A stretch of 32,004 nt of DNA from Chloroflexi bacterium ADurb.Bin180. GTDB taxonomy: Bacteria > Chloroflexota > Anaerolineae > UBA2200. The stretch is taken from assembly GCA_002070215.1 (NCBI GenBank), contig MWCV01000029.1, positions 1 through 32,004 of the forward strand. Reading direction: 5' to 3'. Each line of letters opens with the position of its first letter. The first letter of the stretch is position 1. Of the stretch, positions 1,519 to 21,124 are shown piece by piece. The notes beneath the pieces were generated by a model that was not told the DNA's origin, did no database searches, and saw only the letters and a program-made list of their open reading frames with translations. The position numbers and the translations under genes are program-made.

Positions 1519-3548
1519 TGGCGGAGTTGAAGGGTTACTGGCACAAGATCCTGCGGATCGACCTGTCAAAAGGTACGATCGATACGGTTGTTCCGCCAGA
1601 GGACGTCCTGCGCAAGTACATCGGCGGCTTGACCCTGGGCACGTACTATCTGCTCAAGGAAGGGATCATCGACCCCAAGATCAAACCGTTCGATCCTGAG
1701 AACCTGTGGCAGTTGCTGCTGGGCCCGATGAATGGCTACGGCCCGAACGCGCGGTCCTGCATCGTCACCAAGAGCCCCTACAACTTTTTCGGTTCGGCAA
1801 CTTCAGGCGGCCAGGCTGCGGCCAATCTCAAGTTCGCCGGCTGGGATGGCATCCAGATTGTTGGCAAGGCCAGCAAGCCGGTGTACATCGAGATCATCGA
1901 TGACAATGTCGCGATCAAGGACGCCTCACACGTGTGGGGCAAGGACGCTGAAGAGTCGGAGATGGAGCTGGTGCGCGGCGTGCTCGCGCCCATCGAAAAG
2001 CGCGGCCCGCTGGTGAGCGAAGCGGACATGACGCCTGAATGGGCCGCCATGCGACCGCCCAAGGGCAAGGGCATCGGCCAAAAGCGGCTGGCTTCGGCAT
2101 GGGTAATCGGCACTGGTGGCGAGAATCGCGTCTGGTATTCTAACGTGATTACCGAAGGCGCGCGGGCTCACGGCCGACATGGCACAGGAGCCATTCTCGG
2201 CTCCAAGAACTGCAAAGGCATCGTGGTCCGCGGCACCAAAGGGCAGAAGCTCGCCGATAAGGCTACCTTCCAGAAGCTGCTCAAAGAAATCCAAGATGGC
2301 ATGATGACCAACTATGGCAACCGCTCCTTCGGCACTGCCCGTATCGGCAACCGCACGGCCAACATCGAAGACGCGTTTCCGATTCGGAACTGGCAGTGGG
2401 GCTGCTGGTCAGACCCGACCAACGTCAAAGCGCTGGATGGTCCGTTCATGGATTCCGTGTCGTTCGTCAAGCAGATTGCTTGCCCCGGCTGCGTGATGCA
2501 CTGCATGTACCTGTCGGAAGTGACGAGCAAGGACCCGCTGATGAACGGCACCATCACGGACATGCCGGACTGGGAAGCCATGGGCCAGGTTGGCGGTATG
2601 CTCGGCTACCTGGAACTCGAAGGCAGGACCCCGGAGGATCCTCATGGCGGCGATCACTGGGACATGGCCGAGGCGCTGGCCAAGACGCAGTTTAGCACCT
2701 TCCTGCACGACAACTATGGCCTCGACTATATCGAAGGTGGCTGCAACCTGGCCCTCGTGGCCGAGTTGTACCAGCGCGGTTACATCACCGCGGCCGACCT
2801 GGATGGCATTGCACCCAAGTGGGGCGATGTGCATGCTTTTGATGCCCTGCTGAAAAAGATCGTGCGCCGCGAAGGCATCGGCGACATAATGGCCAACGGC
2901 ACCTGGGAAACGGCCCGGTATTTTGCCGAAAAGACCGGCAAGCCGGAGATCATGAGGTACTCGCAGACCACGCACCGCTACGGCCAACCGGCTCACGGCG
3001 TTCGCGGCATCGACAAAGATGCACTGGAGTACGTGTCGGTAGAGCGCCCGAACGTGCACACGGACGGCGGCGGCGCTGGCTTCCTCAAGGGCGACTATGC
3101 GGCGGCAGCGGCCGACCAGAACGCCAAGTCGGTCGTGGACTCGCTGGTGTACTGCTCCTTTGCCCGCGGTCACTGGACTGGCAAGACGGCGGCGATCCTC
3201 AACGCGGCTACCGGCTGGGACATGAAGGAAGAGGAGCTGGGCCCCGTTGGCGCGCGGTTCTATGCCATGGCCCGCACGTTCAACCTCTACACTCAGGGCA
3301 TCAAGGATCCCAGGAAGGAATGGGACAATCTGATGACCGACCGCTGGTTCGAGGATCCTCTGCCGAACGGCCCCGCCAAGGGCGGTATTGCCTACGGTGG
3401 AGACAAGAACAAGCTCTTGAACCAGGCCCTGCCTGCGTACTGGAAGGCCCGCGGCTGGACCGAGGACAAGGGCGTGCCTACCGCCGATACGCTCAAGGCG
3501 CTGGGCATCGATGACTTCTGCGAACAGTACTCTGGAGCGTTGCGCTAG
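1518..3548 (+). CDS. Aldehyde:ferredoxin oxidoreductase family enzyme 1 (tungstopterin)
   Basis: This 676-aa enzyme has an AOR N-terminal domain (about 5-210) followed by the AOR C-terminal domains. Family members bind a bis-pterin tungsten (or molybdenum) cofactor and one [4Fe-4S] cluster, and oxidise or reduce aldehydes or related acyl groups. Cluster ligands visible are C322-x2-C325-x3-C329 and C546 in DSLVYC. The cofactor-binding stretch GARAHGRHGTGAILGSKN (214-231) is typical. I chose ATG 1518, which overlaps the ferredoxin stop; an upstream in-frame extension to 1362 would run through the ferredoxin gene. There is no signal peptide, so export would require riding with the Tat ferredoxin. 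The substrate cannot be told from sequence. BamB- and YdhV-like roles are alternatives within the family. Confidence 0.85.
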   Translation: MAELKGYWHKILRIDLSKGTIDTVVPPEDVLRKYIGGLTLGTYYLLKEGIIDPKIKPFDPENLWQLLLGPMNGYGPNARSCIVTKSPYNFFGSATSGGQAAANLKFAGWDGIQIVGKASKPVYIEIIDDNVAIKDASHVWGKDAEESEMELVRGVLAPIEKRGPLVSEADMTPEWAAMRPPKGKGIGQKRLASAWVIGTGGENRVWYSNVITEGARAHGRHGTGAILGSKNCKGIVVRGTKGQKLADKATFQKLLKEIQDGMMTNYGNRSFGTARIGNRTANIEDAFPIRNWQWGCWSDPTNVKALDGPFMDSVSFVKQIACPGCVMHCMYLSEVTSKDPLMNGTITDMPDWEAMGQVGGMLGYLELEGRTPEDPHGGDHWDMAEALAKTQFSTFLHDNYGLDYIEGGCNLALVAELYQRGYITAADLDGIAPKWGDVHAFDALLKKIVRREGIGDIMANGTWETARYFAEKTGKPEIMRYSQTTHRYGQPAHGVRGIDKDALEYVSVERPNVHTDGGGAGFLKGDYAAAAADQNAKSVVDSLVYCSFARGHWTGKTAAILNAATGWDMKEEELGPVGARFYAMARTFNLYTQGIKDPRKEWDNLMTDRWFEDPLPNGPAKGGIAYGGDKNKLLNQALPAYWKARGWTEDKGVPTADTLKALGIDDFCEQYSGALR

Positions 3549-3710: not shown

Positions 3711-3777
3711 CGAAAGGAATGGCCTGGGCCTCGACGGCACGTCGTCGGCAAAGGATGTGAAGGGAGGACTGGCGCCG

Positions 3778-4680
3778 GTGAGCTACGAAGACCTCTTTGG
3801 ACGGAACCTTGGCATCTACAGTGTCGAGGAGCAGGAACGCATCAGGAACTCAAAGATGGCGATCATCGGCTGTGGCGGCATCGGGGGCGTGATTGCTCTG
3901 GTCCTGGCGCGGAGTGGGGTGGAGCATTTTGCTCTGGTGGAGAAGGACTGCTACGAGAGGTCCAATATGAACCGGCAGATAGTGTGCTTCTACGACACTA
4001 TCGGGCGCAACAAGGCCGAGTGCGTACGGGATGAGATCCTGCGCATCAACCCACAGGCTGACGTCAAGGTGGATTGCCGGGCCCTCACGGAACACGATAT
4101 CCCGCACCTGGCGGAGATGGGCGACGTGATTCTTCCAGTGATGGATGAGTGGCCGCTCAGCCTGACCTGCCTGGAACAAGTGCGCCAGGTCAAGCCGACG
4201 GTGATGGCTTACCCTGTGGGCGCCTTGGGCCGCGTGTCAGTCTTTACGGCCCAGAGCCCGACAGTGGCCGATTGTCTGGTGATGCCGGCTGGGTTTGGCT
4301 ATCAGCAGCTGGAGGACTATACACATCGTCCCGAGGCTCGCCGGCTGCTGATGTACTATCAGACCGAAGGCGGATGGCGCGAGGATTGGTTTAATGAATG
4401 GACCGAAGGCAGAAAGCCCCACGCTCAAATCGCGCCTATTGTGTGGATTACCTCTTGTCTTGCGGCAATGGAGGCGCTCAAGTTGGTGTCCGGCCGCTGG
4501 AAACCGGTTATCGCGCCCTACTACTGGCACATAACGCCAGAGAGCGCCAGCGTGCGCCGGTTCGGGCTGAGACGGAAGCTTGCCTCGCGGCTGTCGCGTC
4601 ACGAGTGGATGCTGAAGAGACTGTCAACATTGTCGCGCAACAAGACCCTGGTGCGCTGGTTCACCCGACTGATTGACTGA
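3778..4680 (+). CDS. ThiF/MoeB/HesA-family adenylyltransferase (E1-like)
   Basis: About 300 aa. Family members adenylate the C-terminal glycine of a small ubiquitin-like sulfur carrier (ThiS, MoaD) as a first step of thiazole or molybdopterin synthesis, or of related chemistry. Seen: the nucleotide-binding glycine motif GCGGIGG and the acidic/arginine ATP site VEKDCYERSNMNRQ. A C-terminal basic tail ends in WFTRLID. GTG 3778 is preferred because GGGAGG at 3762-3767 is 10 nt before it; GTG 3757 would put the ribosome site inside the gene. It is followed after 15 bp by the membrane protein, so they are co-transcribed. In this setting it may help make the pterin dithiolene for AOR, but no MoaD-like carrier is in the window. 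Cassette 2 lacks a copy. Confidence 0.75.
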   Translation: MSYEDLFGRNLGIYSVEEQERIRNSKMAIIGCGGIGGVIALVLARSGVEHFALVEKDCYERSNMNRQIVCFYDTIGRNKAECVRDEILRINPQADVKVDCRALTEHDIPHLAEMGDVILPVMDEWPLSLTCLEQVRQVKPTVMAYPVGALGRVSVFTAQSPTVADCLVMPAGFGYQQLEDYTHRPEARRLLMYYQTEGGWREDWFNEWTEGRKPHAQIAPIVWITSCLAAMEALKLVSGRWKPVIAPYYWHITPESASVRRFGLRRKLASRLSRHEWMLKRLSTLSRNKTLVRWFTRLID

Positions 4681-4695: not shown

Positions 4696-5202
4696 GTGAA
4701 AGGCAAGCTGGTCTTACCCAACATTCTGGGGCTGGCCGCCGCGGGGATGATGGTTCTTGGCTATCGAGCACCATGGTGGATACTCCGCATGGAAGGATTG
4801 AAGGATGAGAGCTATGTCTTTCCCAACATCATTCGCGGGCCGGTGACAGAGGCGATTGGCTACAGACGCACGCCCCAGATGCAGTACATGGTGGCGGCGC
4901 TGTTCATCTGCATGGGGCTGTGTGTGCTGGGGAGCTTTCTTCCTCGGCGGAAAGCCCGTGTGGCCCTGGTCCTGTCGAGTATCCTCGGATCGCTGGTGCT
5001 GTGGCGTTTCTGGGTGAGGATCGCTGATCTGGCCTCGCGCTTTGAGATGCCGGTTGAGGGCCAGGGTGTGCTGCGCTATTCTGGGTTTGACGTGATGCGT
5101 GTCTGGTCGCGGGTGGGTGACGGGTTGTATCTCATGCTGGGGGGTTGCGGCCTGGCCCTCTTCGCGGCCCTCTTCCATCGCTGGCTGAGGCGGCCGGCCT
5201 GA
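4696..5202 (+). CDS. Small polytopic membrane protein paired with Rdh 1
   Basis: 168 aa with about four hydrophobic segments (roughly 7-24, 66-84, 88-106, 144-162). No known domain is recognised. It is a clear paralogue of the protein at 10162-10701: both carry PW(W)-x-L, FP-x-IIRGP-x-T, a G-Y-(R/K)-(R/K)-T-x-QM motif, and matching hydrophobic patterns. Each copy lies immediately 5' of an Rdh-like gene, the position and presumed job of a membrane anchor such as RdhB. However, it is larger and not recognisably RdhB. GTG start with GGAGG 8 nt upstream. Function as an anchor or quinone-side partner is inference from position only. Confidence 0.7.
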   Translation: MKGKLVLPNILGLAAAGMMVLGYRAPWWILRMEGLKDESYVFPNIIRGPVTEAIGYRRTPQMQYMVAALFICMGLCVLGSFLPRRKARVALVLSSILGSLVLWRFWVRIADLASRFEMPVEGQGVLRYSGFDVMRVWSRVGDGLYLMLGGCGLALFAALFHRWLRRPA

Positions 5203-5253: not shown

Positions 5254-6723
5254 TTGCCCAAGCTGACCAATGAGCTCACCTCCCTCCAGCGCCTGCTGCG
5301 CGAGGGCACACTATCGCGGCGCGACTTTGTGCGTCGGCTGCTCATTCTTGGCGTTTCCGCCGGATCAGCGGAGCTGCTGGCGTCCTGTGCGCCCGCGCAG
5401 CAAGCGCCCGTTTCTCCTGCGACGCCAACGCACCCGCCGCTGCATTCGTCTTACGGTCCCACGCCGACTGACACGCCGTTGTCGGCGGGAGGCAATCTGG
5501 CGCTGGGCGCCACCCCTCCGGCGTACCCAACCTATACACCGGCACCGGAGAGCGCCTACCCTTCTCCCACCGCGACGCCGGTGATGTGGGAAGCGGGCCT
5601 GTGGATGTGTCCGCTGTGCAAGGGGAGGTTTGGGGCCGAGGGTGAGCTGGTCGAGCACCTGCTGAGTGCTCATGTGAGCAAGGTGCCCGGGGTGCGGGTG
5701 GTCGAAGAGCCGACATACCGGCGCTATCTGAATGAAGAGATAGCGCGGTTTGACCAGAGGAACATCATTTTTGCGCGGATGATGTGGGACCGGGAGTACA
5801 TTGCCAGGGCAGGGAGCCAGGCGCAGCGGCAGTGGCGTGAGAGTGGAGAGGAGCTGGCGCAAGGGCGGGCGGTGCGGACAGGTGCGATTTGGGTAGATGA
5901 CAGTGTGGGGAGTCTGGCGCCACAGTACGGCGGGTTTTCTGGCCATGTGCGAGGGTTTGGGGGATTGTACGATTGGGATGATGCGGTAGCGCCTCAGAAG
6001 TCACCCATAGGGACGCCAGAGGAGATGACGGTACGGGTGAAGGAAGCGGCGCGGTATTACGGGGCGGATCTGGTGGGGGTGACGGAGATCAACCCGTTGT
6101 GGGTGTACTCGCACTATTATGATCGGGAGACGGGGGCGTACGGGGAGAACGAGACAGGGTACAAGTACGCGATCATGATTGGGATTGAGATGGACTTTGG
6201 CGGGATCAGGCAGTCACCGGGATGGGGGGCGAGTGCGGCGACGGCGCTGGCGTACTCGGAGATGGGCGAGGTAGTGGCGAAGCTGGCCAAGTACATCAGG
6301 ACGCTGGGGTACGAGGCAGTGCCATCGGGGAACGACACGACGCAGAACATACCGTTGGCGATAGATGCTGGGTTGGGGGAGCTGGGGCGGCTGGGGCTAT
6401 TGCTGACTCCGGAGTACGGGGCGCGGCAGAGGTTATGCAAGGTACTGACGAATCTGCCACTGGTGGCAGACAAGCCGATAGAGTTTGGGATGCAGCGGTT
6501 CTGCGAGACGTGTATGGCGTGTGCGCATGCGTGTCCGGCGAAGGCGATACCGAAGGGGGAGCGGAGTCTGGAGCGGACGTCGATATCGAACCGACCGGGG
6601 ATCAAGCGGTGGCACGTGAATGTAGAGAACTGTTATCTATTCTGGAGGCAGAACGGCGGGGTGGACTGCTCGAACTGTGTAGCGGCGTGTCCGTGGAGCC
6701 AGCAGAACCGTCCCTGGCTGTGA
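5254..6723 (+). CDS. Reductive-dehalogenase-like Tat lipoprotein 1 with C2H2 zinc-finger motif
   Basis: 489 aa. Order: coiled n-region, Tat motif S21-R22-R23-D24-F25, lipobox L-A-S-C45, Pro/Thr/Ala linker (46-110), then C119-x2-C122-x12-H135-x4-H140, a classical C2H2 spacing with F and L at the usual core positions. Next comes an RdhA-type catalytic domain with IEMDFGGIRQSPG (311-323) and DAGLGELGRLGLLLTPEYGA (371-390). Two [4Fe-4S] sites close the protein: C417/C420/C423/C427 and C460/C472/C475/C479. RdhA enzymes use a corrinoid to remove halogens; whether this one does is unproven. The start appears to be TTG 5254 (AGGAG 13 nt upstream, rather far). Bases 5563-6721 are nearly identical to 11036-12194, and codon use changes abruptly there (GGG, AGG, ATA, GTA frequent). 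Confidence 0.8.
   Translation: MPKLTNELTSLQRLLREGTLSRRDFVRRLLILGVSAGSAELLASCAPAQQAPVSPATPTHPPLHSSYGPTPTDTPLSAGGNLALGATPPAYPTYTPAPESAYPSPTATPVMWEAGLWMCPLCKGRFGAEGELVEHLLSAHVSKVPGVRVVEEPTYRRYLNEEIARFDQRNIIFARMMWDREYIARAGSQAQRQWRESGEELAQGRAVRTGAIWVDDSVGSLAPQYGGFSGHVRGFGGLYDWDDAVAPQKSPIGTPEEMTVRVKEAARYYGADLVGVTEINPLWVYSHYYDRETGAYGENETGYKYAIMIGIEMDFGGIRQSPGWGASAATALAYSEMGEVVAKLAKYIRTLGYEAVPSGNDTTQNIPLAIDAGLGELGRLGLLLTPEYGARQRLCKVLTNLPLVADKPIEFGMQRFCETCMACAHACPAKAIPKGERSLERTSISNRPGIKRWHVNVENCYLFWRQNGGVDCSNCVAACPWSQQNRPWL
5563..6721 (+). repeat. Long direct repeat, copy 1 (catalytic part of Rdh 1)
   Basis: 1,159 bp matching 11036-12194 at constant offset 5,473. I found three differences: 5601 G/A (silent), 6628 A/G (Asn to Asp) and 6648 G/A (silent). 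All are near the ends, leaving 1,026 bp with no difference seen. Sequence diverges at once on both flanks. Confidence 0.9.
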
Positions 6724-6972: not shown

Positions 6973-7121
6973 GTTTTCTGGCACTTTGGCCGAGGGCCTT
7001 GATCCTGACTGAAGGGAGGTGGGAAACAGAAACTGTCGGCGGAGTCCCATTCTCGGTAACCCGAGAGTCCACTCGTTTTGATAGCTCGAGACCGGAGAGG
7101 AATTCGAGAGGAGAAGAGAGG

Positions 7122-7979
7122 ATGTCACAACTTCACGAAAGGCTGTCCGAACTGCAGGAAAAGCTTCGCCTGGGGCAGATCACCAGACGCGATTTCCTGC
7201 GCTATGCGACCTTGCTTGGCGTTTCGGTTGGTGCGGCAGAGGCTCTGGCGGCTTGCGCCCCCAAGCCCGGGCCCACGGCCGTTCCGCCGACGAAGGTTCC
7301 CCCGACCAAGGTGCCGCCAACAGCAGTAGCTCCTAGCGAGCCGGCACCGACTGCCCCGCCGCCAGTGGCGGAGAAGCAGGCACTGCCGGGCCATACCCTG
7401 CTGGTCGACCCGACCAAGTGCACCGGCTGCTTGAACTGCGCCGTTGCCTGCTCTGAAAAGTGGCTGGCGGAGTATTTCCCCAACGAGGCCAAGCACCTGA
7501 TGAGCCTGGAGTTCTCCCGCATTCGTCCGATGCGGTTCCAGCTGGTGGATGTGGTCAACGTATGCTACGACTGCCGTCTCTACCAGTGGGCGGAGGGCAG
7601 CTCAAAGGCGCCGTGCGAGCAGGTCTGTCCGCAGGCCGCTCTGACGGTGGTGCCGGTTGGCGAGGGCAAGCCCGGATTCACAGGCAACGGCTACCTGAAT
7701 GTGGACCGCGACCTGTGCACGGGCCTCGACCTGTGCGGACGCTGCCTCGAGATCTGCGAGGATCAGTTTGGCAGCGGCATTTCCTTTGACCCGATTGAGA
7801 AGAAGGCGCAGATCTGCTCTCGCTGCGGCGGTCTGCCTGCCTGTGTGGAGGCCTGCCCCGAGCCGCTCGCCCTGCAGTTCTATCCGTTGATGACGAACGG
7901 CCGCATGTTTGCGCAGACCCCCGCTGACCTGGCCGAAAGCCTGTATAACAAGATCTACGACAAGTTTGGGAGGGTATAA
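7122..7979 (+). CDS. Tat-exported lipoprotein ferredoxin with four [4Fe-4S] clusters (AOR partner 2)
   Basis: 285 aa, paralogue of the protein at 658-1518. It has a Tat motif T21-R22-R23-D24-F25-L26, lipobox L-A-A-C45 and a Pro/Thr spacer with repeated VPPTK units (46-82). Cluster cysteines are at 100/103/106/110, 148/151/165/169, 199/205/208/212 and 232/235/241/245. The stretch around the third and fourth clusters (about 194-247) is almost residue-for-residue the same in both paralogues, whereas the first half has diverged. This suggests a conserved docking surface. ATG 7122 has the same purine-rich ribosome site as paralogue 1; upstream in-frame sequence back to 6999 is leader. The TAA is directly followed by the AOR ATG (TAAATG). 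Inferred to be membrane-anchored on the outside. Confidence 0.85.
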   Translation: MSQLHERLSELQEKLRLGQITRRDFLRYATLLGVSVGAAEALAACAPKPGPTAVPPTKVPPTKVPPTAVAPSEPAPTAPPPVAEKQALPGHTLLVDPTKCTGCLNCAVACSEKWLAEYFPNEAKHLMSLEFSRIRPMRFQLVDVVNVCYDCRLYQWAEGSSKAPCEQVCPQAALTVVPVGEGKPGFTGNGYLNVDRDLCTGLDLCGRCLEICEDQFGSGISFDPIEKKAQICSRCGGLPACVEACPEPLALQFYPLMTNGRMFAQTPADLAESLYNKIYDKFGRV

Positions 7980-10016
7980 ATGGCCGAGATGTTTGGATAC
8001 GCTGGCAAGATTGCCCGGGTGGACCTCACCGCTGGCACCGTCACGGTCATTGAGCCCCCGGTCGACGTTCTGAAGAAATTCCTGGGCGGAGCAGCGCTCG
8101 GAATGTACTACATGGTCAAGGAAGGGCTGTCGGACCCCGCCATCGGCGCTTTCCACGAGAAGAACATGATCCAGTTCTTGCTGGGACCCACCAATGGCTT
8201 TGGCCCCAACGCCCGGTCGACGATTGTTACCAAGTCGGCCTACAATTTTAACTGCATCACCACCTCCGGCGGTCGCGCGGCGGCGGAGCTCAGATTTGCT
8301 GGCTGGGACGGCATCCAGGTTGTTGGCAAGGCCAAGACCCCGGTCTACCTCGAGGTCATCGACGACAAGATTACCATCAAGGACGCGACTCACCTGTGGG
8401 GCAAGGACAGCGAAGAGACCGAGAAGGAACTGCTAGCCTCGATTCAGGCCCCGCTGGAAAAGCGCGAGACGATCGTGACTGCTGGCGACATGACCCCGGA
8501 ATGGGCAGCAGTGCGCCCGCCGGGAGGAAAAGGCATCGGCGCCAAGAGGCTCGGCGCGGCCTGGGTTATCGGCCGAGGCGGCGAGAACCGCGTCTGGTAT
8601 GCCTGCGTTACCACAGAAGCCGCTCGAGCCCACGGACGTTACGGTGCGGGTGCCATCATGGGTGACAAAAAGCTGAAGGGCATTGTCATTCGCGGCACCA
8701 AGGGCCAGAAGATCTATGACAAGGCCAAGTTCCTGAAGATCCTCTACGACATCCAGGCTTCGGAGGCCAAGGACGCGTTCTGGAGACTGTATGGCACCGC
8801 TGGCATCGGCCAGTCCGAGTCCAACGTCCAGAGCGGCTATCCGATCCGTAACTGGCAGTGGTGCTCCTGGAACGATCCGGATGTGGTCAAGTCGCAGGAT
8901 GGCCCGTTTATGGACAACACCAGCTTCAAGAAGCCGCTGTCGTGCCCAAACTGCAACTTGCACTGCATGTTCAGCAGCGAAATCACGAGCAGCGACCCAA
9001 TGATGAACGGTGTCTTGTCCGACATGCCTGACTGGGAAGCCATGGGCATGGTCGGCGGCAACCTGGGCTACATGGAGAAGGCGGGCAAGACGCCTGAGGA
9101 TCCACAGCAGCTTACCCAGGCTGAGCGGCGTGAAGTGCTGGCCAAGATTCAGTACACCACCTTCCTCCACGACAACTACAGTCTGGACTATATCGAGGGC
9201 GGCAACAACCTCGCCCTGGTCCAGGAGCTGTACCAGCGCAAGCTGATCACCGAAGCGGACCTGGATGGCATCAAGCCCGTGTGGGGCGATGTACACGCCA
9301 TCGACGCCCTGGTGAAAAAGATCATCCTGCGTGAGGGAGTTGGCGACCATCTGGCCAACGGCACCCTGGAGACGGCCAAGTACTTTGCTCAGAAGAAGAA
9401 CAACCCCGAGATACTCAAGTACGCCTGCACTACCCACGGTTACGGGCAGCCGGCGCACGGCGTACGCAGCCATGCCGACCAGAACGACCTCGAGTACGTC
9501 ACCGTCAACCGCGCTACGGAGCATACCAGCAACGGAGCCGCAGGGTTCTCCAAGCTGGACTATGCTGCCGGTGTCGCCGGGCAGGACGTCAAGTGCTCTC
9601 AGGACTCGCTGGTGCACTGCATCTTTGCCGCCGGTCACTGGGCTGGCAAGACTGCGGACATGATCCAAGCTCTCACGGGCTGGACTGACTACACTGAGGA
9701 AGACCTGTTCACGCTCGGTGCCCGCGAATACGCCCTGTGCCGCATCTTTGACCTCACCACCCGCGGCGTGAAGGATCCCAAGAAGGAATGGGATATGATG
9801 AACTACCAGCACCGCTGGTACGAGCCGCTGCCGAACGGGCCGTTCAAGGGCTCCGTCGCGGCGTCCGGGACTCCGGAGAAGCTCTTTAATGAGCAGCTCC
9901 CGGCTTACTGGAAGGCCAGAGGCTGGACCGATGATAAGGGTGTTCCCACGGCTGCCAAGCTGAAGGAACTCGGCATCGATGATATTGCCGAGGCCCTTGC
10001 GGCAAAGCTGCGCTAG
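7980..10016 (+). CDS. Aldehyde:ferredoxin oxidoreductase family enzyme 2 (tungstopterin)
   Basis: 678 aa, same length and domain order as the first AOR and clearly paralogous throughout (shared GWDGIQ-VGKA, MTPEWAA-RPP, WVIG-GGENRVWY). Cluster ligands C322/C325/C329 (SCPNCNLHC) and C548 (DSLVHC) are present, as is the pterin-contact stretch AARAHGRYGAGAIMGDKK. There is no signal peptide; Tat export with the coupled ferredoxin is inference. Divergence between the two enzymes spread over the whole length suggests an old duplication with different substrates, in contrast with the very recent identity of the Rdh genes. A terminator follows. Confidence 0.85.
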   Translation: MAEMFGYAGKIARVDLTAGTVTVIEPPVDVLKKFLGGAALGMYYMVKEGLSDPAIGAFHEKNMIQFLLGPTNGFGPNARSTIVTKSAYNFNCITTSGGRAAAELRFAGWDGIQVVGKAKTPVYLEVIDDKITIKDATHLWGKDSEETEKELLASIQAPLEKRETIVTAGDMTPEWAAVRPPGGKGIGAKRLGAAWVIGRGGENRVWYACVTTEAARAHGRYGAGAIMGDKKLKGIVIRGTKGQKIYDKAKFLKILYDIQASEAKDAFWRLYGTAGIGQSESNVQSGYPIRNWQWCSWNDPDVVKSQDGPFMDNTSFKKPLSCPNCNLHCMFSSEITSSDPMMNGVLSDMPDWEAMGMVGGNLGYMEKAGKTPEDPQQLTQAERREVLAKIQYTTFLHDNYSLDYIEGGNNLALVQELYQRKLITEADLDGIKPVWGDVHAIDALVKKIILREGVGDHLANGTLETAKYFAQKKNNPEILKYACTTHGYGQPAHGVRSHADQNDLEYVTVNRATEHTSNGAAGFSKLDYAAGVAGQDVKCSQDSLVHCIFAAGHWAGKTADMIQALTGWTDYTEEDLFTLGAREYALCRIFDLTTRGVKDPKKEWDMMNYQHRWYEPLPNGPFKGSVAASGTPEKLFNEQLPAYWKARGWTDDKGVPTAAKLKELGIDDIAEALAAKLR

Positions 10017-10050: not shown

Positions 10051-10093
10051 AAGGCCCCGGCCCTGGGATACTTGACCAGGCCGGGGCCTTTCG
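10051..10093 (+). terminator. Intrinsic terminator after AOR 2
   Basis: AAGGCCCCGGCC with CTGG (10051-10066) pairs with CCAGGCCGGGGCCTT (10077-10091), followed by TTCG. It is placed as in cassette 1, ending the ferredoxin-AOR unit. Confidence 0.7.
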
Positions 10094-10113
10094 TCTACGC
10101 CATGACGAGGCTG

Positions 10114-10122
10114 TGCTATAAT
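10114..10122 (+). promoter_or_regulatory. Extended -10 promoter for membrane protein-Rdh 2
   Basis: TGCTATAAT gives a consensus -10 (10117-10122) with the extended TGn element. No clear -35 is seen, which extended -10 promoters can tolerate. It lies just after the terminator and 40 bp before the membrane-protein start. Confidence 0.5.
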
Positions 10123-10161
10123 GCGAGCAAATCCAATCCTGATTTCGGCAGAGGAGGGAGC

Positions 10162-10701
10162 GTGAAATCCAAGACACTCCCCAATTTCGTCGCCATTCTG
10201 GGCGCCATTCTGATTGCGGTCTCACTGGCCTACCCCTGGTGGAGCCTCGAGATCGAGATCATTGGCAAGACCAACATCTTTCCCTACATCATTCGCGGCC
10301 CTGCCACGCAGCTCCTGGGCTACAAGAAGACGGCGCAGATGCCGCTACTGACCGGCATTATCATCGCCTGCGTCGTGCTGGCGCTGCTGGGCAGCTTACT
10401 CGGAAAACGCCTGGGGCGGGTGGTGCTGCTGGTGGCTGGTGCCCTGTCCGGGCTGGCGGCGTGGCGCTTTTATGCTCGAGCACTGGACATCGCTGGCCGC
10501 TATCAAATGAAGTCAGTGAACGGCCACACCATCGCCAAAGTGGGGGCCTTTTCGCCACTGCACGTGGCCGCGCGGCTGGAGAGAGGCTACTACCTGAATA
10601 TTGCTGGCGGTGTGGTCTGCCTGGTGGCGTTCCTGCTGCACGGGTTCTTCCGTCGATCCAAGCCCAAGCCGGCGCCAGAAGGACCAGTTGCACCCGAATG
10701 A
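10162..10701 (+). CDS. Small polytopic membrane protein paired with Rdh 2
   Basis: About 179 aa from GTG 10162 (GTG AAA TCC), which has GAGGAGGGAG a few bases upstream; a longer in-frame form from 10072 would overlap the terminator and promoter. Around four membrane segments are expected, with a Lys/Pro-rich tail. It shares with the 4696-5202 protein the sequence LPN near the start, YPWW/APWW, FP-x-IIRGP, GY-x-x-TAQMP or TPQMQ, and the closing hydrophobic segment. The Rdh 2 gene starts about 31 bp after its stop. Conserved pairing of this family with Rdh-like genes suggests it holds the lipoprotein or passes electrons to it. No domain is recognised. Confidence 0.7.
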   Translation: MKSKTLPNFVAILGAILIAVSLAYPWWSLEIEIIGKTNIFPYIIRGPATQLLGYKKTAQMPLLTGIIIACVVLALLGSLLGKRLGRVVLLVAGALSGLAAWRFYARALDIAGRYQMKSVNGHTIAKVGAFSPLHVAARLERGYYLNIAGGVVCLVAFLLHGFFRRSKPKPAPEGPVAPE

Positions 10702-10732: not shown

Positions 10733-12196
10733 GTGGCGCGGCTAGACGGAGCGTCTGGTGAACTCGTGCTGTCGCGCCGCGGTTTTGTGCGCCTGGCGGC
10801 CCGTCTTGGGTTGCTGGCCGGCGCGGGCCTGGGCCTGTCGTCGTGCGTGCCGCCTGGACTCCAACCCCTGGATTCGAGCGCCTCTGGCCTGGGGCCAGAA
10901 TCGACCCCCACGCAGCATCATCACGGATACCCGGCCTTTGTTGGCAACGAGAGCCGCGAGGTAATTCGCCACGGCGGAGCACCGCAGGTCAAGACGCTGC
11001 CAACCTATGCGCCACCCCCGGGGAAAACCTCTGCCTCTCCCACCGCGACGCCGGTGATGTGGGAAGCGGGCCTATGGATGTGTCCGCTGTGCAAGGGGAG
11101 GTTTGGGGCCGAGGGTGAGCTGGTCGAGCACCTGCTGAGTGCTCATGTGAGCAAGGTGCCCGGGGTGCGGGTGGTCGAAGAGCCGACATACCGGCGCTAT
11201 CTGAATGAAGAGATAGCGCGGTTTGACCAGAGGAACATCATTTTTGCGCGGATGATGTGGGACCGGGAGTACATTGCCAGGGCAGGGAGCCAGGCGCAGC
11301 GGCAGTGGCGTGAGAGTGGAGAGGAGCTGGCGCAAGGGCGGGCGGTGCGGACAGGTGCGATTTGGGTAGATGACAGTGTGGGGAGTCTGGCGCCACAGTA
11401 CGGCGGGTTTTCTGGCCATGTGCGAGGGTTTGGGGGATTGTACGATTGGGATGATGCGGTAGCGCCTCAGAAGTCACCCATAGGGACGCCAGAGGAGATG
11501 ACGGTACGGGTGAAGGAAGCGGCGCGGTATTACGGGGCGGATCTGGTGGGGGTGACGGAGATCAACCCGTTGTGGGTGTACTCGCACTATTATGATCGGG
11601 AGACGGGGGCGTACGGGGAGAACGAGACAGGGTACAAGTACGCGATCATGATTGGGATTGAGATGGACTTTGGCGGGATCAGGCAGTCACCGGGATGGGG
11701 GGCGAGTGCGGCGACGGCGCTGGCGTACTCGGAGATGGGCGAGGTAGTGGCGAAGCTGGCCAAGTACATCAGGACGCTGGGGTACGAGGCAGTGCCATCG
11801 GGGAACGACACGACGCAGAACATACCGTTGGCGATAGATGCTGGGTTGGGGGAGCTGGGGCGGCTGGGGCTATTGCTGACTCCGGAGTACGGGGCGCGGC
11901 AGAGGTTATGCAAGGTACTGACGAATCTGCCACTGGTGGCAGACAAGCCGATAGAGTTTGGGATGCAGCGGTTCTGCGAGACGTGTATGGCGTGTGCGCA
12001 TGCGTGTCCGGCGAAGGCGATACCGAAGGGGGAGCGGAGTCTGGAGCGGACGTCGATATCGAACCGACCGGGGATCAAGCGGTGGCACGTGAATGTAGAG
12101 GACTGTTATCTATTCTGGAGACAGAACGGCGGGGTGGACTGCTCGAACTGTGTAGCGGCGTGTCCGTGGAGCCAGCAGAACCGTCCCTGGCTGTAA
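10733..12196 (+). CDS. Reductive-dehalogenase-like Tat lipoprotein 2 with C2H2 zinc-finger motif
   Basis: 487 aa from GTG 10733 (GAGG six bases upstream); a longer reading to 10601 would run through the membrane-protein gene. The N-terminus is unrelated in detail to Rdh 1 but has the same design: SRRGFV Tat motif, hydrophobic stretch, lipobox L-S-S-C, then a Ser/Pro/His linker. From SPTATPVMWEAG to the end it differs from Rdh 1 by one residue (Asp for Asn in the second cluster loop). It therefore carries the same C2H2 pattern, RdhA-type core and two [4Fe-4S] sites. Codon use switches from host-like (CGC, GGC) to GGG/AGG/ATA-rich at the same point. It ends in TAA where copy 1 has TGA, and identity stops there. 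Confidence 0.8.
   Translation: MARLDGASGELVLSRRGFVRLAARLGLLAGAGLGLSSCVPPGLQPLDSSASGLGPESTPTQHHHGYPAFVGNESREVIRHGGAPQVKTLPTYAPPPGKTSASPTATPVMWEAGLWMCPLCKGRFGAEGELVEHLLSAHVSKVPGVRVVEEPTYRRYLNEEIARFDQRNIIFARMMWDREYIARAGSQAQRQWRESGEELAQGRAVRTGAIWVDDSVGSLAPQYGGFSGHVRGFGGLYDWDDAVAPQKSPIGTPEEMTVRVKEAARYYGADLVGVTEINPLWVYSHYYDRETGAYGENETGYKYAIMIGIEMDFGGIRQSPGWGASAATALAYSEMGEVVAKLAKYIRTLGYEAVPSGNDTTQNIPLAIDAGLGELGRLGLLLTPEYGARQRLCKVLTNLPLVADKPIEFGMQRFCETCMACAHACPAKAIPKGERSLERTSISNRPGIKRWHVNVEDCYLFWRQNGGVDCSNCVAACPWSQQNRPWL
11036..12194 (+). repeat. Long direct repeat, copy 2 (catalytic part of Rdh 2)
   Basis: Partner of 5563-6721. Differences lie at 11074, 12101 and 12121. Such repeats also make this locus prone to deletion of the 5.5 kb between them, or to assembly error. 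Confidence 0.9.
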
Positions 12197-12300: not shown

Positions 12301-13785
12301 TTGACTGCAGAAGAGGTCAAGGAGAAAGAGAAGGAGGCGAAACGCCTCCAGCGTGAGCAGTGGAAGAAGATCAAGCAGCGCTGGAACCTGGTGAAGTATT
12401 TCCGCCAGCTCGTCCAATTTGCGCTGCTGGCGCTCTTCCTCTATCTGGTATGGTCTACAACCAAGGCCGGCGTCGATGCACTGCCGATCAACCTGTTCAG
12501 CCGGTTCAATCCGCTGTTCGCGGCGGTCGGCATGATCGGCGGCAAGACCTTTATTACCAACATGATTCCTGGCCTCGTCACCATCGTGGCCACACTGTTG
12601 TTTGGCCGGTTCTGGTGCGGCTGGATCTGCCCGCTGGGCACGGTGCTCGATCAGTACGGCCCGCGCGTCACCGAGAAGATACCGAACTGGTTCCGCAACA
12701 TCAAGTATATTCTGTTGTTCGCGTTCCTCTTTGCCGCGGTGATGGGCAGCCTGGCGCTGATGTGGCTGGATCCGATCACCATCTTTGTTCGGCCACTTGC
12801 CGGCGCCATCTTCCCGGCCATTCTGCAAAAGACAGCTCCGATTGCGCCGATGAAGGGGCTGCAGTCGGCCGTGGTGGCTCAGTTGCCGGTTCGACCGCAG
12901 GTGTTCCCGCTGTTGGCCATTCCTTTGATCATCGTATTGCTGCTCAATATCTTTGCCCGTCGCTTCTGGTGCCGCTATCTGTGCCCGCTCGGTGCGTGGG
13001 TGGCGCTGTTGAGCAAATTCTCGCTCTTCAAGCGCTTCCGTTCCGACGCCTGCATCAAGTGCAAGCAGTGCGTCAAGGCTTGCCCGATGAACACCATCGA
13101 CGGGGCGGAGTTCCACAGTGACCCCGGTGAATGTCTTCAGTGCGTGAGCTGTCACGGCACCTGCCCGGTGGCGGCCATCAGTATCAAGCCGCAGACCAAG
13201 CCCGGTTTTGGTCACAGCTATGATCCCAATCGCCGGCAGATGCTCGCGTCGCTGGCCGTTGGCGTTGGTGGGGCCGTTCTGCTCAAGCAGACCCAGAAAG
13301 CGAATGAATACCAGTATCTGATCCGTCCGCCGGGCGCAAAGGAAGACGATTTCCTGGCCAAGTGCGTGCGCTGCGGGCAGTGCGTTAAGGTCTGCCCGAA
13401 CAATGCGCTTCAACTGACGGTAAAGGGCGGCATTGGTTCGATGCTCACGCCAGTGCTTGTTCCGCGTACAGGCAACTGCGACTGGGACTGCAACTCGTGT
13501 GGAAAAGTCTGCCCGACGCAGGCCATCCCCAAGTTGCCGCTCGAAGAGAAGCGCCTGGCCAAGATGGGCACAGCAGTGGTCAACACGGATACCTGCATCC
13601 GCTGCTTCATCTGCATCATCGAGTGCCCGAACAAGTCGTTGGTTCAGGGAACCATACAGGGCCTTCGCGGCAAGTATCCGCTGGTCGATGCCACCAAGTG
13701 CACCGGCTGCGGTTTGTGCGAGTTCGTTTGTCCGGTCGTGGGCGAGTCCGCCATTCGCGTTGTGGCACCGCCCAAGTCCGCTTAG
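12301..13785 (+). CDS. NapH-NapG-type fused iron-sulfur membrane protein
   Basis: 494 aa from TTG 12301 with AGGAGG six bases upstream. Residues 1-300 look like NapH/NosR-C: about four to five membrane segments, two CX3CP motifs (C106/C110 and C224/C228), and two ferredoxin clusters (C251/254/257/261 and C278/281/284/288). Then comes D-P-N-R311-R312-Q-M-L plus a hydrophobic stretch, an internal Tat-like signal. The rest is NapG/MauM-like (IRPPGA, then clusters at C355/358/361/365, C393/397/400/404, C432/435/438/442 and C467/470/473/477). NapGH passes quinol electrons to exported reductases. Here the natural customers are the AOR ferredoxins or the Rdh proteins, which is inference. No NapA is present. 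Confidence 0.8.
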   Translation: MTAEEVKEKEKEAKRLQREQWKKIKQRWNLVKYFRQLVQFALLALFLYLVWSTTKAGVDALPINLFSRFNPLFAAVGMIGGKTFITNMIPGLVTIVATLLFGRFWCGWICPLGTVLDQYGPRVTEKIPNWFRNIKYILLFAFLFAAVMGSLALMWLDPITIFVRPLAGAIFPAILQKTAPIAPMKGLQSAVVAQLPVRPQVFPLLAIPLIIVLLLNIFARRFWCRYLCPLGAWVALLSKFSLFKRFRSDACIKCKQCVKACPMNTIDGAEFHSDPGECLQCVSCHGTCPVAAISIKPQTKPGFGHSYDPNRRQMLASLAVGVGGAVLLKQTQKANEYQYLIRPPGAKEDDFLAKCVRCGQCVKVCPNNALQLTVKGGIGSMLTPVLVPRTGNCDWDCNSCGKVCPTQAIPKLPLEEKRLAKMGTAVVNTDTCIRCFICIIECPNKSLVQGTIQGLRGKYPLVDATKCTGCGLCEFVCPVVGESAIRVVAPPKSA

Positions 13786-14034: not shown

Positions 14035-14152
14035 GCTTGTTGCGCGCCGCCGGCTGCCCCCTGGGAGCAATGCTTACAGGGAGGAAGACGCCCAGTCTGC
14101 CCCGCCATTCTACGAGCTGCCCTGCGGGGTCCGCCGGCGTGGAGGATGTAGG

Positions 14153-14692
14153 ATGAACTTTCTGAACATCGGCCCGGGGGAGATGATCTTTATCCTGGCC
14201 CTGGCGCTGCTGATCTTCGGTCCCAAGCGCCTGCCCGAGTTGGCGCGAGACCTGGGCAAGGCCGTGCGCAGTTTTCAGCAGGCCTCTCAGCAGATCACGA
14301 GTGAGTTAACCAAAGAAATGAGCGAAGCGTCCAAGACACTCGACCAGGCTTCAGACTCTGTGTCGGGCGCCCTGAGCGAGGTGGCCAATACCACCGCTGC
14401 CGAATTGTCGCAGGCCGCTGCCGCCGCGAGTGGCGAGCTGCACAAAGCCACCGGCGCCATCAATACCGAGCTGCAGCAAGCGGCGGCGGCTGCCTCGGCC
14501 CCACAATCTCTCACCCAGGCCGCCGTTGAGCCGGCGGTTGCGGGGATTGCTGACCTGCCTCCTAACGATGCGGTTCAGCCACAACGGCCGCCTTCTGACG
14601 CGGCCCCTGCCGAGCCAGAGCCGCTGACTCATCAGACCGAGGACGGCACCGCTGCCTCTGAACCCGTCGAAGGATCTACGTACGTGATCTAG
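14153..14692 (+). CDS. tatB: TatB-like twin-arginine translocase subunit
   Basis: 179 aa from ATG 14153 (GGAGG upstream; the longer in-frame reading from 13907 crosses tatA). It opens with NFLNIGPGEMIFILALALLI, an N-terminal helix, then FGPKRLPELARDLGKAVRSF. A long Ala/Ser/Gln-rich, probably coiled amphipathic region (about 45-120) and a Pro-rich acidic tail follow. The acidic residue in the membrane-entry segment and the long cytoplasmic helix favour TatB over TatA, though Chloroflexota often have TatA-like proteins only. TatB would receive the precursor with TatC. Confidence 0.75.
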   Translation: MNFLNIGPGEMIFILALALLIFGPKRLPELARDLGKAVRSFQQASQQITSELTKEMSEASKTLDQASDSVSGALSEVANTTAAELSQAAAAASGELHKATGAINTELQQAAAAASAPQSLTQAAVEPAVAGIADLPPNDAVQPQRPPSDAAPAEPEPLTHQTEDGTAASEPVEGSTYVI

Positions 14693-17962: not shown

Positions 17963-18742
17963 CTAGTGGGTAACCACCAAGGGCCGGTTGTGAACGGTGA
18001 TTACTTCCACATCGACGCCGTAGGTAGCGCTCAGATGCTCAGCCGTGAGGGTGTCAGCGATAGGCCCGGCGGCAAGAATCCTGCCGCCGCGCATGAGAAT
18101 GACCTCGTCGCAGATGGCCGCGGCCGAGTTGGGGTCGTTGGTCGTGAAGACGACGGTATGGGCTCCGTCCGCCAGGCGGCGCATCAACTGCAGGACGCGC
18201 CGGCGGTTGCCTATGTCCAGATGAGACGTGGGCTCGTCGAGAAGGAACATCGCCGGGCGCTGCGCGAGGGCGCGTGCGATAGTGGCGAGCTGCTTTTCGC
18301 CCCCGCTCAGAGAGGGGACCGTACGGGCACGGAACCCCGCCATGCCGGCCTCGGCCATCGACTGCTCGACCACTGTCAGGTCCTCGTCCGAGGGAAGCTG
18401 CAGCAGGCCCAGGTGCGGAGCTCGCCCGAGCAACACATACTCGGCGACGGTAATGTCAAAGACGACCTGTTCCTGCTGTGGAACCAGCCCCAGCGTGTGG
18501 CTCAGCTCCTTGCGCGTATAGTCCCGAGCAGGGCGGCCTTCGAGAAGCACTTCGCCACTGGTGGGCTGCAGCAGGCCGAGGATGAGGTGCAGCAGGGTTG
18601 TCTTGCCAGACCCGTTCGGACCCAGGAGGGCCGTGACTTTGCCTGCCGGCACCTCCGCTTCAAGTCCGTTCAACACGTGAGCTCTCTCGGGCTCGTAGCC
18701 AAAGACCGCGTTCCGCAGCGATATAGCTGGCCGCGCGCTCAT
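17963..18742 (-). CDS. ABC importer ATPase (BtuD/FecE/MolC class), H-loop His replaced by Asn
   Basis: 259 aa cytoplasmic ATPase that powers uptake through the adjacent permease. Walker A GPNGSGKTT (41-49), Q-loop Q89-Q90, signature LSGGEKQ (145-151) and Walker B MFLLDEPTSHLD (165-176) are intact. Where family members have the switch histidine (TTHD), this protein reads T-T-N202-D-P. The start overlaps the permease stop by four bases. The class also includes iron-siderophore and B12 importers. The Moco-type leader of the operon favours molybdate or tungstate (MolC-like). Confidence 0.85.
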   Translation of the reverse strand: MSARPAISLRNAVFGYEPERAHVLNGLEAEVPAGKVTALLGPNGSGKTTLLHLILGLLQPTSGEVLLEGRPARDYTRKELSHTLGLVPQQEQVVFDITVAEYVLLGRAPHLGLLQLPSDEDLTVVEQSMAEAGMAGFRARTVPSLSGGEKQLATIARALAQRPAMFLLDEPTSHLDIGNRRRVLQLMRRLADGAHTVVFTTNDPNSAAAICDEVILMRGGRILAAGPIADTLTAEHLSATYGVDVEVITVHNRPLVVTH

Positions 18743-19761
18743 CGCTGTACTCCAACGCGTCGGTGCGTGAGCATCGTCAGGAAGAAAGCCGCGCCAACAA
18801 ACGAGGTGAGTATTCCCAGCGGGATCTCACCGGTGAGCACCGTGCGGGCGACGTCGTCACACCAGAGCACAAAGAGGCTGCCCAGAAGCATTGAACCGGG
18901 CACCACATGCCTGGCGTCGGAGCCGAGCAGCCGTCGGGCAATGTGCGGAATGATCAACCCCACCCAGCCTACCTGGCCGCACTTGGAGACAAGAGCCGCA
19001 GCGGAGGCTGTGGCAGCGAGGAGGAGGACGAATCGCTCTCTGCCGGGAGTGGCGCCGAGAGAAAAGGCCGTCTCGTCGCGCATCGAAAGCAGGTTGAGCC
19101 GCCAGCGCATCAGATAGATTACGGTGAGGCTGGGGATCACCACCGGCAGGATTTGCAGCAGGTCGCGCCAGGTGATTGCCCAGAGCCCGCCGAGCATCCA
19201 GAAGGTGATGTCCGGGAGCTGGCGGACCGGGTCGGCCATGTACTTGAGCACCCCGGTGGCCGAGGTGTAGAGCGCCGACACAGCGATGCCGGCCAGCACC
19301 AACCGCAGCGTCCAGTCTCCAAAGCGCACCTGTCGCGCGAGAAAGGCGCTGCCGAGCAAACCGAGCATGGCAAAGCCCGCAGCACACAGTTGAATGGTGG
19401 CAGAGCGGCCGCCAAGCAACACGATCGCGACCGATGCGCCAAACGCAGCGCCAGGAGAGACGCCAAGGAATCCCGAGTCGACCAGCGGGTTGCGGAACAC
19501 CAACTGAAACACCGTCCCTGAGGCCGATAGCACAATGCCGAGAAGAAAGGCGGTGAGAATCCTGGGCACACGGAGATTCAGCACCAGGCTGCGCGCCATG
19601 AGATCGTTGACCAGTGCCGCCGGCGAGGTGAAATACGGCGTCGGGTAGCGGCCCATGAAGAAGGAGATGGCAAGGGTCACCACGACCAGGGCCATCAACA
19701 GCCATGTGAGGCGGATGGAGGTCAAGCTGCTCCCGGGCACAGTGCCTTGTTTAGTGGACAT
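18739..19761 (-). CDS. ABC importer permease, FecCD/BtuC/MolB class
   Basis: 340 aa, about ten membrane helices as usual for the FecCD family. Recognisable stretches are LRVPRILTAFLLGIVLSASG, then NPLVDSGFLGVSPGAAFGAS, and GLIIPHIARRLLGSDARHV near the C-terminal coupling helix. Its ATG lies 11 bp inside the end of the binding-protein gene, so translation is coupled. As a type II importer it forms a homodimer in the membrane. Substrate is inferred from regulation only. Confidence 0.85.
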   Translation of the reverse strand: MSTKQGTVPGSSLTSIRLTWLLMALVVVTLAISFFMGRYPTPYFTSPAALVNDLMARSLVLNLRVPRILTAFLLGIVLSASGTVFQLVFRNPLVDSGFLGVSPGAAFGASVAIVLLGGRSATIQLCAAGFAMLGLLGSAFLARQVRFGDWTLRLVLAGIAVSALYTSATGVLKYMADPVRQLPDITFWMLGGLWAITWRDLLQILPVVIPSLTVIYLMRWRLNLLSMRDETAFSLGATPGRERFVLLLAATASAAALVSKCGQVGWVGLIIPHIARRLLGSDARHVVPGSMLLGSLFVLWCDDVARTVLTGEIPLGILTSFVGAAFFLTMLTHRRVGVQR

Positions 19762-20896
19762 CCATCTGCACCACGGGCATGATATGTTCGTCCACCGCGG
19801 CTTTGTCCATGCCGAAGAGGCCGAAGAGCTGGTAGATCTCGGCGTTCATGTCGATGTCGCTGAAGCGCTCCGGGTACATACGGGTGGCCAGCCAGTTGAC
19901 GCCGAGGATCCAGCGGGGGTCAGCATTGTCCCACCCATAGAGATCCGCCGGGAAGGCGTATAGCTCGTTGTTCTGCACCGCTTTGAGCTTGCTCCACAGC
20001 GGGTCTTCCTTCAGCCGGGCCACGATGGTCCTGGCGTTCATTGTGTAGGTGATCACCAAGAAGATCTTGTCGGGATTCCACAGCGCGACCTGTTCGAGGT
20101 TGGTCACCGTCCAGCCATCGGTCTGGGTAGCTTGCTCCAACCACAAGGGATGTCCGCCGGCGAGTTGCACCTCGATCGTCTGCATCCAGCTCCTGGCGGG
20201 GACTTTGACCGCCAGCGATCCGCCGCGATCGGTGTACTCGAGCAGGAGGACGCGAGGCTTCTGATCTTCGCTGATGTCGGCAGTGCGCTGCTTGATTCGC
20301 TCCAGCCGTTCCTGGTAATAGGACACGACGTGCTCTGCACGTTGCGGCTCACCGAGCACCTTGCCCATGTTGGTCACATCCTGGTAGAACTGCTCGGGGG
20401 TCTCCAGCGCCAGATACAGAGACGGAATCTTGACCTCAGCCAGCGTTTTGGACAAGCCGTCGACGAGAAAGCCCTTCATCAAGACCAGGTCCGGCTTGAG
20501 CGCTGCGATCTGCTCGGCGTTCGGGCCCGCGGCGAGAATCGACTTGCGGCTCCAGTTGGGGTCGACATAAGGCAGGAAGTCATCCGGGGTTGGCCCCTTC
20601 TGTTCGAGTCCAACCAGCTTGTCCCAGGCAGAGGGGAACAGGTACAACAGATGAAGGCCCATATAAGGAGCTCTTCCTACGAGCACCACGCGAGAAGGTG
20701 GGCCTTTGAGCTCAACGGTTTGGCCTGCGGCGTCCACAAGGGTGATTGGCATCTGAGTGGGCGCCACGGTAGGACTGACCTCTGGAGGCAGCGAAGGGGG
20801 TGTGGAGGTCGGAGGCAGAGAGGGAGCGCAGGCTGCAGCGATGCTGGCAATCAGAACACAGAGCGTCAGAGCAAAGCGAATCCTGAGTGGGTTCAA
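19751..20896 (-). CDS. ABC importer substrate-binding lipoprotein (BtuF/MolA class)
   Basis: 381 aa from TTG 20896 with AGGAGG five bases upstream. A longer in-frame reading to 21055 would run into the riboswitch region and is rejected. Signal peptide with lipobox A-A-A-C-A-P, Pro/Thr/Ser linker, then a class III binding-protein fold (ITLVDAAGQTVELKGPPSRV opening, then PNAEQIAALKPDLVLMKG). It captures the substrate outside and delivers it to the permease. Default annotation would be iron or cobalamin. In Haemophilus the same fold (MolA) binds molybdate and tungstate, which suits the AOR enzymes here. Confidence 0.8.
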   Translation of the reverse strand: MNPLRIRFALTLCVLIASIAAACAPSLPPTSTPPSLPPEVSPTVAPTQMPITLVDAAGQTVELKGPPSRVVLVGRAPYMGLHLLYLFPSAWDKLVGLEQKGPTPDDFLPYVDPNWSRKSILAAGPNAEQIAALKPDLVLMKGFLVDGLSKTLAEVKIPSLYLALETPEQFYQDVTNMGKVLGEPQRAEHVVSYYQERLERIKQRTADISEDQKPRVLLLEYTDRGGSLAVKVPARSWMQTIEVQLAGGHPLWLEQATQTDGWTVTNLEQVALWNPDKIFLVITYTMNARTIVARLKEDPLWSKLKAVQNNELYAFPADLYGWDNADPRWILGVNWLATRMYPERFSDIDMNAEIYQLFGLFGMDKAAVDEHIMPVVQMDVH

Positions 20897-20922
20897 TGAG
20901 ACCTCCTGGAATCCGGATACAC

Positions 20923-20954
20923 AAAAAAGCAGCCTTCCGGTGAAGGAGGCTGCC
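20923..20954 (-). terminator. Intrinsic terminator of riboswitch C expression platform
   Basis: On the minus strand GCAGCC (20953-20948) pairs with GGCTGC (20934-20929), with inner TTC/GAA pairs and a six-T tract (20928-20923), 27 bp before the start codon. A copy of the 3' arm (GAAGGCT) occurs upstream at 21008-21002. The aptamer strand AAGGAG (21021-21016) can also pair with CTCCTT (20948-20943). Both are candidate antiterminators, so aptamer closure should favour termination (predicted OFF switch). Confidence 0.6.
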
Positions 20955-21012
20955 AGGCAACTAGCCCGCCGGCTCCCCGCCTGCACTATTGACGGTCGTG
21001 GAGCCTTCGGGT

Positions 21013-21124
21013 CATCTCCTTTCCGAATGCGGGAGGCAAGGCCGTTTCCAGCCATGCCCTACCGGCGCCCCGCCATCGGCGGACAAGGTTCGTCGCCGCC
21101 ATTAGGACGGGGCACTCGGAGATG
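21013..21124 (-). promoter_or_regulatory. Riboswitch-like aptamer C before the ABC importer, Moco/Tuco motif candidate
   Basis: On the minus strand P1 is CATCTCC (21124-21118) with GGAGATG (21019-21013). The second stem is longer (GCCCCG/CGGGGC, then GGCGG/CCGCC). The third is about 10 bp capped by GAAA, again a GNRA loop. The 3' segment CCCGCATTCGGAAAGGAG aligns with GCCGCGCTTGCAAAGGAG of leader A. CTCCGA after P1 is shared by all three. This is the element that links importer and enzymes to one ligand. Confidence 0.6.

Follow-up and report, generated by a model that had tools for sequence, protein, structure and literature searches.

C2H2 zinc fingers are known mainly from intracellular nucleic-acid-binding proteins. 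What, then, might such a module do on an enzyme that is predicted to be exported and held at the membrane by a lipid anchor? This question is raised by a 32,004-nucleotide stretch of DNA from a Chloroflexi bacterium (the window), in which two reductive-dehalogenase homologues (RDH1 and RDH2) each carry a C2H2 pattern between a lipoprotein linker and the catalytic domain (Table 1). The original prediction, which singled out the pattern, knew of no RdhA with such a module and proposed that it serves structure, metal sensing or partner docking rather than DNA binding. In keeping with the first point, the open-access literature, which omits most subscription papers, yielded no description of a reductive dehalogenase (RDH) with a zinc finger; it likewise yielded none of a gene cluster joining an RDH to a tungsten oxidoreductase of the aldehyde ferredoxin oxidoreductase (AOR) family, and nothing relevant on a periplasmic C2H2 finger.

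Table 1. Features of the window (all on the + strand), in order of position.
Feature	Position	Details
Fd1, Tat-lipoprotein multi-[4Fe-4S] ferredoxin (WorS-like)	658–1518	
AOR1, aldehyde ferredoxin oxidoreductase family (WorL-like)	1521–3548	no signal peptide
ThiF/MoeB-family protein	3757–4680	
TM168 membrane protein	4696–5202	~4 TM; PWW and GPxxExxGYxR motifs; conserved in cluster
RDH1, Tat/lipobox reductive-dehalogenase homologue with finger	5254–6723	ORF, 489 aa, TTG start
RDH1 twin-arginine motif SRRDFVRR and lipobox LASC	5314–5388	lipidated Cys45; sequence, scan
RDH1 Pro/Thr/Ser-rich linker, lipobox to finger	5389–5598	sequence
Duplicated or homogenised tract	5561–6721	versus 11034–12194, 4 mismatches
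C2H2 finger 1	5608–5673	CPLCKGRFGAEGELVEHLLSAH, residues 119–140 of RDH1
Equivalents of PceA Tyr246 (6253–6255), Asn272 (6331–6333), Arg305 (6430–6432)	6253–6432	profile alignment to 4uqu
Two [4Fe-4S] cysteine motifs	6502–6690	CETCMACAHACP (6502–6537); C-x11-C-x2-C-x3-CP (6631–6690)
Fd2, second Tat-lipoprotein ferredoxin	7116–7979	
AOR2, second AOR-family protein	7980–10016	
Second TM168-like membrane protein	10072–10701	start uncertain
RDH2	10733–12196	own Tat/lipobox and linker; start uncertain, GTG 10733 assumed
C2H2 finger 2	11081–11146	same residues as finger 1
NapH/NapG-like membrane polyferredoxin	12301–13785	conserved downstream
TatA-family protein	14147–14692	downstream in L047 and L040 too

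The Finger and Its Duplicate in the Window

The translation of finger 1 reads exactly C-x2-C-x3-F-x5-L-x2-H-x4-H at the very position originally predicted, with C119, C122, H135 and H140 as ligands and F126 and L132 as core residues. The TTG start assigned to RDH1 has a counterpart in a sister-genus gene (L034), which begins at the same offset with an ATG. The exact pattern, whose expected frequency is ~1.4e-7 per protein, arose in 0 of 20,000 shuffles of the RDH1 protein, and a looser version in 4 of 20,000.

RDH2 had been cited as a second instance. The pattern is indeed present there, and finger and catalytic domain are nearly identical to those of RDH1, while the N-termini (signal and linker) differ; yet the shared tract, 99.7% identical in DNA, is the product of a recent duplication or gene conversion. 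RDH2 therefore adds no independent evidence and is discarded as support. The tract spans two otherwise diverged gene clusters. Three contigs of a sister genome (C4, C11 and C33) all end within this one gene, a sign that its copies may have been homogenised in that genome as well; apparent stand-alone finger proteins in that genome (G001 C4 and C11) were rejected as cut-off copies, both lying at contig ends that adjoin this gene.

Conservation in Bacteria and Archaea

A scan covering 84,980 species genomes was combined with searches of relatives. Independent support for the finger comes from the sequences of two paralogues in the same genome (L003 and L004; 60 and 58% identity, with fingers CPACLQRFATQDELMQHILTGH and CPVCLLQFDRRDDMLRHIEEAH) and from relatives in bacteria and archaea: full-length finger-bearing proteins are found in several Anaerolineae, one Peptococcaceae MAG (L050), Methanocellales (L056, L058 and L059) and archaeon SCG-AAA382B04 (L061). 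The Peptococcaceae protein is near-identical in kind to that of an Anaerolinea MAG (L060), and mis-binning or transfer is possible; both have two fingers in tandem.

All four ligands are intact in 18 of 21 proteins, the two window copies being counted as one. The exceptions are a first copy in L051 (last His to Tyr), L058 (second Cys to Gly) and a second copy in L061 (second Cys to Glu); the metal site thus appears dispensable in some copies. Each of these paralogues shares its genome with an intact copy. Across a 17-row alignment the four ligand columns hold C, C, H and H in 17, 15, 17 and 16 rows, respectively, the core aromatic is Phe in 15 and an aromatic residue stands two before the first Cys in 16, while most non-ligand columns diverge widely; the net charge is negative in 14 of the 17 fingers.

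Two other matches were set aside. One (L160) resembles an HNH-type sequence by eye, and a weak match in a Methanocellaceae MAG was attributed to ordinary small archaeal finger proteins: two tiny ORFs (L208:1474-1740) encode stand-alone finger-like peptides, 32 and 37 residues long, MAEEMKELKCPMCGATFKNKEEMAEHAKTHKK and MAETQEKAKFKCKFCGMTFVSKDEYEKHLNGHDK. At L055:7641-9173 a finger RDH is interrupted by an in-frame stop between finger and catalytic domain, reflecting a broken gene or a sequencing error. Plasmid records yielded nothing beyond ordinary RDHs, at <60% identity.

Predicted Fold

The finger is predicted to adopt the classical beta-beta-alpha fold. AlphaFold2 models a 61-residue segment as two short strands and a helix (21–32) with a pLDDT of ~86 over the finger; a full 387-residue model (pLDDT 88) has the same elements, with a finger pLDDT of only 65–76. 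Fold searches return BCL11A over 29 columns at 1.1 Å and Miz-1 ZF12 over 31 residues at 1.8 Å (Z 3.1), with Foldseek E-values of 0.2 and higher, a weakness to be expected of such a short chain. With a profile of the segment as query, classical C2H2 proteins are retrieved from the PDB (2i13 at 1e-22, spanning six fingers; 7mc1 at 3e-13), and zf-C2H2_4 is matched by 16 of 17 members, at E-values up to 0.1, and zf-C2H2 by 13. We infer that the finger binds zinc. The RDH finger shares ligand spacing, hydrophobic core positions and fold with classical fingers of these two families, but is single or double, mostly acidic and placed on a predicted exported lipoprotein enzyme.

The window's 22-residue segment alone scores 17.3 bits, under the Pfam gathering cut-off of 27, as might be expected of a chance pattern within the linker. 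The shuffles, the ligands kept in 18 of 21 proteins, the predicted fold and the confinement to a single clade (see below) leave that explanation a negligible probability, and it was rejected. Neither finding that the original prediction named as refuting it, ligands not conserved among homologues or placed far apart in the predicted structure, was borne out: ligand conservation and predicted fold mark the C2H2-type module between linker and catalytic domain as genuine.

The Catalytic Domain

The two window proteins match TIGR02486 at 210.6 (RDH1) and 210.2 bits, above the cut-off of 160.35. Profile alignment to PceA of Sulfurospirillum multivorans (4uqu, E 5e-90) shows Tyr246, Asn272 and Arg305, the active-site catalytic residues of PceA, to be conserved; the Asn and Arg columns are invariant, and the Tyr column nearly so, among aligned homologues. 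The modeled catalytic fold matches PceA crystal structures (Foldseek, 4ur3, E 2.9e-26). Together with the two [4Fe-4S] motifs, these matches identify RDH-family enzymes whose corrinoid cofactor and dehalogenation activity are putative.

Compared with RdhA proteins such as PceA (4uqu, 4ur3) and the tetrachloroethene RDH captured in a complex (8q4h), the finger RDHs have the same catalytic fold, equivalents of the three catalytic residues, both [4Fe-4S] motifs and a Tat signal. They differ in the N-terminal part, where a lipobox anchor and the finger are found, and in their gene neighbors, an AOR-family oxidoreductase and a ferredoxin, with no RdhB recognized. Putative RDases with three N-terminal transmembrane helices and no Tat motif have been described (PMC6797604), in a paper that mentions neither zinc nor lipoproteins; there too the catalytic domain is fused to its own membrane attachment instead of relying on RdhB, but the finger RDH is a Tat lipoprotein with a finger.

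Origin and Export

In a tree of the catalytic domain without the finger (92 rows, built by a quick method, with some long branches elsewhere), the 22 finger rows fall on one side of a branch (SH-aLRT 95), requiring one change. The finger thus appears to have been acquired in a single event, between the lipid anchor and the catalytic domain. A Tat-type signal is present in nearly all finger proteins and is followed in most by a lipobox; a few carry RQ, RK or RREV variants, L057 lacks the lipobox and the second copy in L061 lacks the twin arginine. Most of the nearest finger-less relatives have only a few residues ahead of the catalytic domain and no visible signal, and look cytoplasmic; the finger therefore came with, or after, the exported form.

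The Gene Cluster and a Finger on a Second Protein

The genes of the window are arranged in the order Fd1, AOR1, ThiF, 4-TM, RDH1, Fd2, AOR2, 4-TM, RDH2, NapH-like and TatA, and the order Fd-AOR-ThiF-TM-RDH-NapH recurs in L047, L040, L051, L060, L053, L055 and L117; L061 has the same genes, rearranged. An AOR gene lies near 12 of 15 finger loci as against 5 of 63 finger-less loci, and AOR together with ThiF near 8–9 of 15 as against none of 63. No such cluster is found within ~8 kb of the finger RDHs of L048 and L056, or within the 3.8 kb examined around the organism's own L003.

The cluster resembles Class V tungsten-containing oxidoreductases, e.g., E. coli YdhV/YdhY and CsWOR41, in that a large subunit of the AOR family is paired with a small subunit that is a Tat-signal ferredoxin, alongside membrane-associated electron-transfer genes (reviewed in PMC13328260, where neither dehalogenases nor Chloroflexi are mentioned). 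It differs in adding the RDH, ThiF and the 4-TM protein. AOR1 might belong to WOR clade 41; its best NCBIfam match, PRK09849, is sub-threshold (169.5 bits, far under the 868-bit cut-off). The TM168 family, to which the 4-TM genes 5' of the RDHs belong, has no Pfam or NCBIfam match and is a possible stand-in for RdhB. A FecCD/BtuCDF-type ABC importer (ATPase, permease and binding protein) is encoded near this corrinoid-enzyme cluster, at 17963–21055 on the − strand; its substrate could be corrinoid or haem.

In L061, the Tat-lipoprotein ferredoxin of the archaeal AOR/RDH cluster (L061:5101-5949, − strand) carries a C2H2 finger of its own, GVSGCLDDNGEDGEPTTQFACPYCDKTFSTESDLKTHIDENHMGEE, directly behind the lipobox. 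It is an exception, as nearly all cluster ferredoxins have none. In a finger-profile search of 13 finger-bearing genomes, E-values below 1e-6 were reached only by these RDHs and the L061 ferredoxin. That two subunits of a single system carry the finger, in every case after the anchor, argues for a role in assembly or positioning.

What Does the Finger Do?

Among the roles first proposed, structure and docking are favored by the evidence, and nothing speaks for sensing. The reading that we hold modestly probable is that the finger is a small, rigid protein–protein docking module outside the membrane that positions the tethered, exported RDH. Because the Tat pathway exports folded proteins, the metal would already be loaded in the cytoplasm, ahead of export. 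Outside the membrane, the finger would dock the tethered RDH, with the ferredoxin/tungsten-oxidoreductase or the 4-TM protein as the likeliest partners, and so let electrons reach the corrinoid site. Docking is supported by the ligands, which persist amid drift at most of the remaining finger positions, by the predicted fold with its profile and structural matches, the tandem fingers of L050 and L060, the mostly negative net charge, the single origin, the restriction of strong finger-profile hits to these RDHs and the L061 ferredoxin, and the association with AOR and ThiF. Against it stand the ligand losses in three paralogues, the reduced confidence of the finger in the full model, the lack of a finger on almost all cluster ferredoxins and the finger RDHs of L048, L056 and L003, which have no nearby cluster, so that docking in cis to the cluster complex cannot be general.

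Some of the same observations would fit a humbler part, a zinc-stabilized mini-domain that caps or spaces the long lipoprotein linker as a folded, protease-resistant unit and has no specific partner. The finger always sits between a disordered-looking linker, whose sequence varies freely, and the catalytic domain, its model confidence is below that of the latter, and tandem fingers and ligand losses in three paralogues are tolerated; the single origin, the near-invariant aromatic residue two positions ahead of the first Cys and persistence across bacteria–archaea distances suggest more than a spacer, but a purely structural role could keep these features too, and the spacer is judged a real, if doubtful, possibility. 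That a Tat chaperone or proofreading factor reads the finger in the cytoplasm and lets only folded, metal-loaded RDH through is unlikely. The finger adjoins Tat signals, in L061 on two different Tat substrates, and the window, L047 and L040 each have a TatA gene a short way downstream, but in the window protein the finger comes at least 70 residues after the signal peptide, other Tat ferredoxins in these clusters have none and the analysis identified no chaperone gene. A metal or redox sensor switching the enzyme can be imagined on the general ground that metals and oxidants can act on Cys/His sites; with neither a regulatory partner nor covariation with a regulator seen, and with three ligand-loss paralogues that would have lost the switch, such a sensor is very improbable. 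Still less is to be expected of binding to DNA or RNA, despite the sequence-profile and fold matches to DNA-binding C2H2 proteins, since a protein with a Tat signal and lipobox is expected outside the cytoplasm, most proteins have one finger and the charge is mostly negative: a single, mostly acidic finger outside the cytoplasm is unlikely to meet nucleic acid, in agreement with the non-DNA role originally proposed.

Implications

On the docking reading, a broader and more tentative proposal can be framed: the finger-bearing RDH may possibly belong, as a subunit, to an as yet undescribed exported electron-transfer complex in which a Tat-exported tungsten oxidoreductase is coupled to a corrinoid enzyme and a eukaryote-like extracytoplasmic C2H2 finger serves as a docking module common to bacteria and archaea. 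A module of mainly intracellular, nucleic-acid-binding proteins is now found on a predicted exported enzyme family and is kept across bacteria and archaea, where it marks a recognizable RDH subfamily. The accompanying genes make a candidate respiratory complex joining an AOR-family oxidoreductase to a corrinoid enzyme, and the finger RDHs give a handle on how RDHs without RdhB may be anchored and supplied with electrons.
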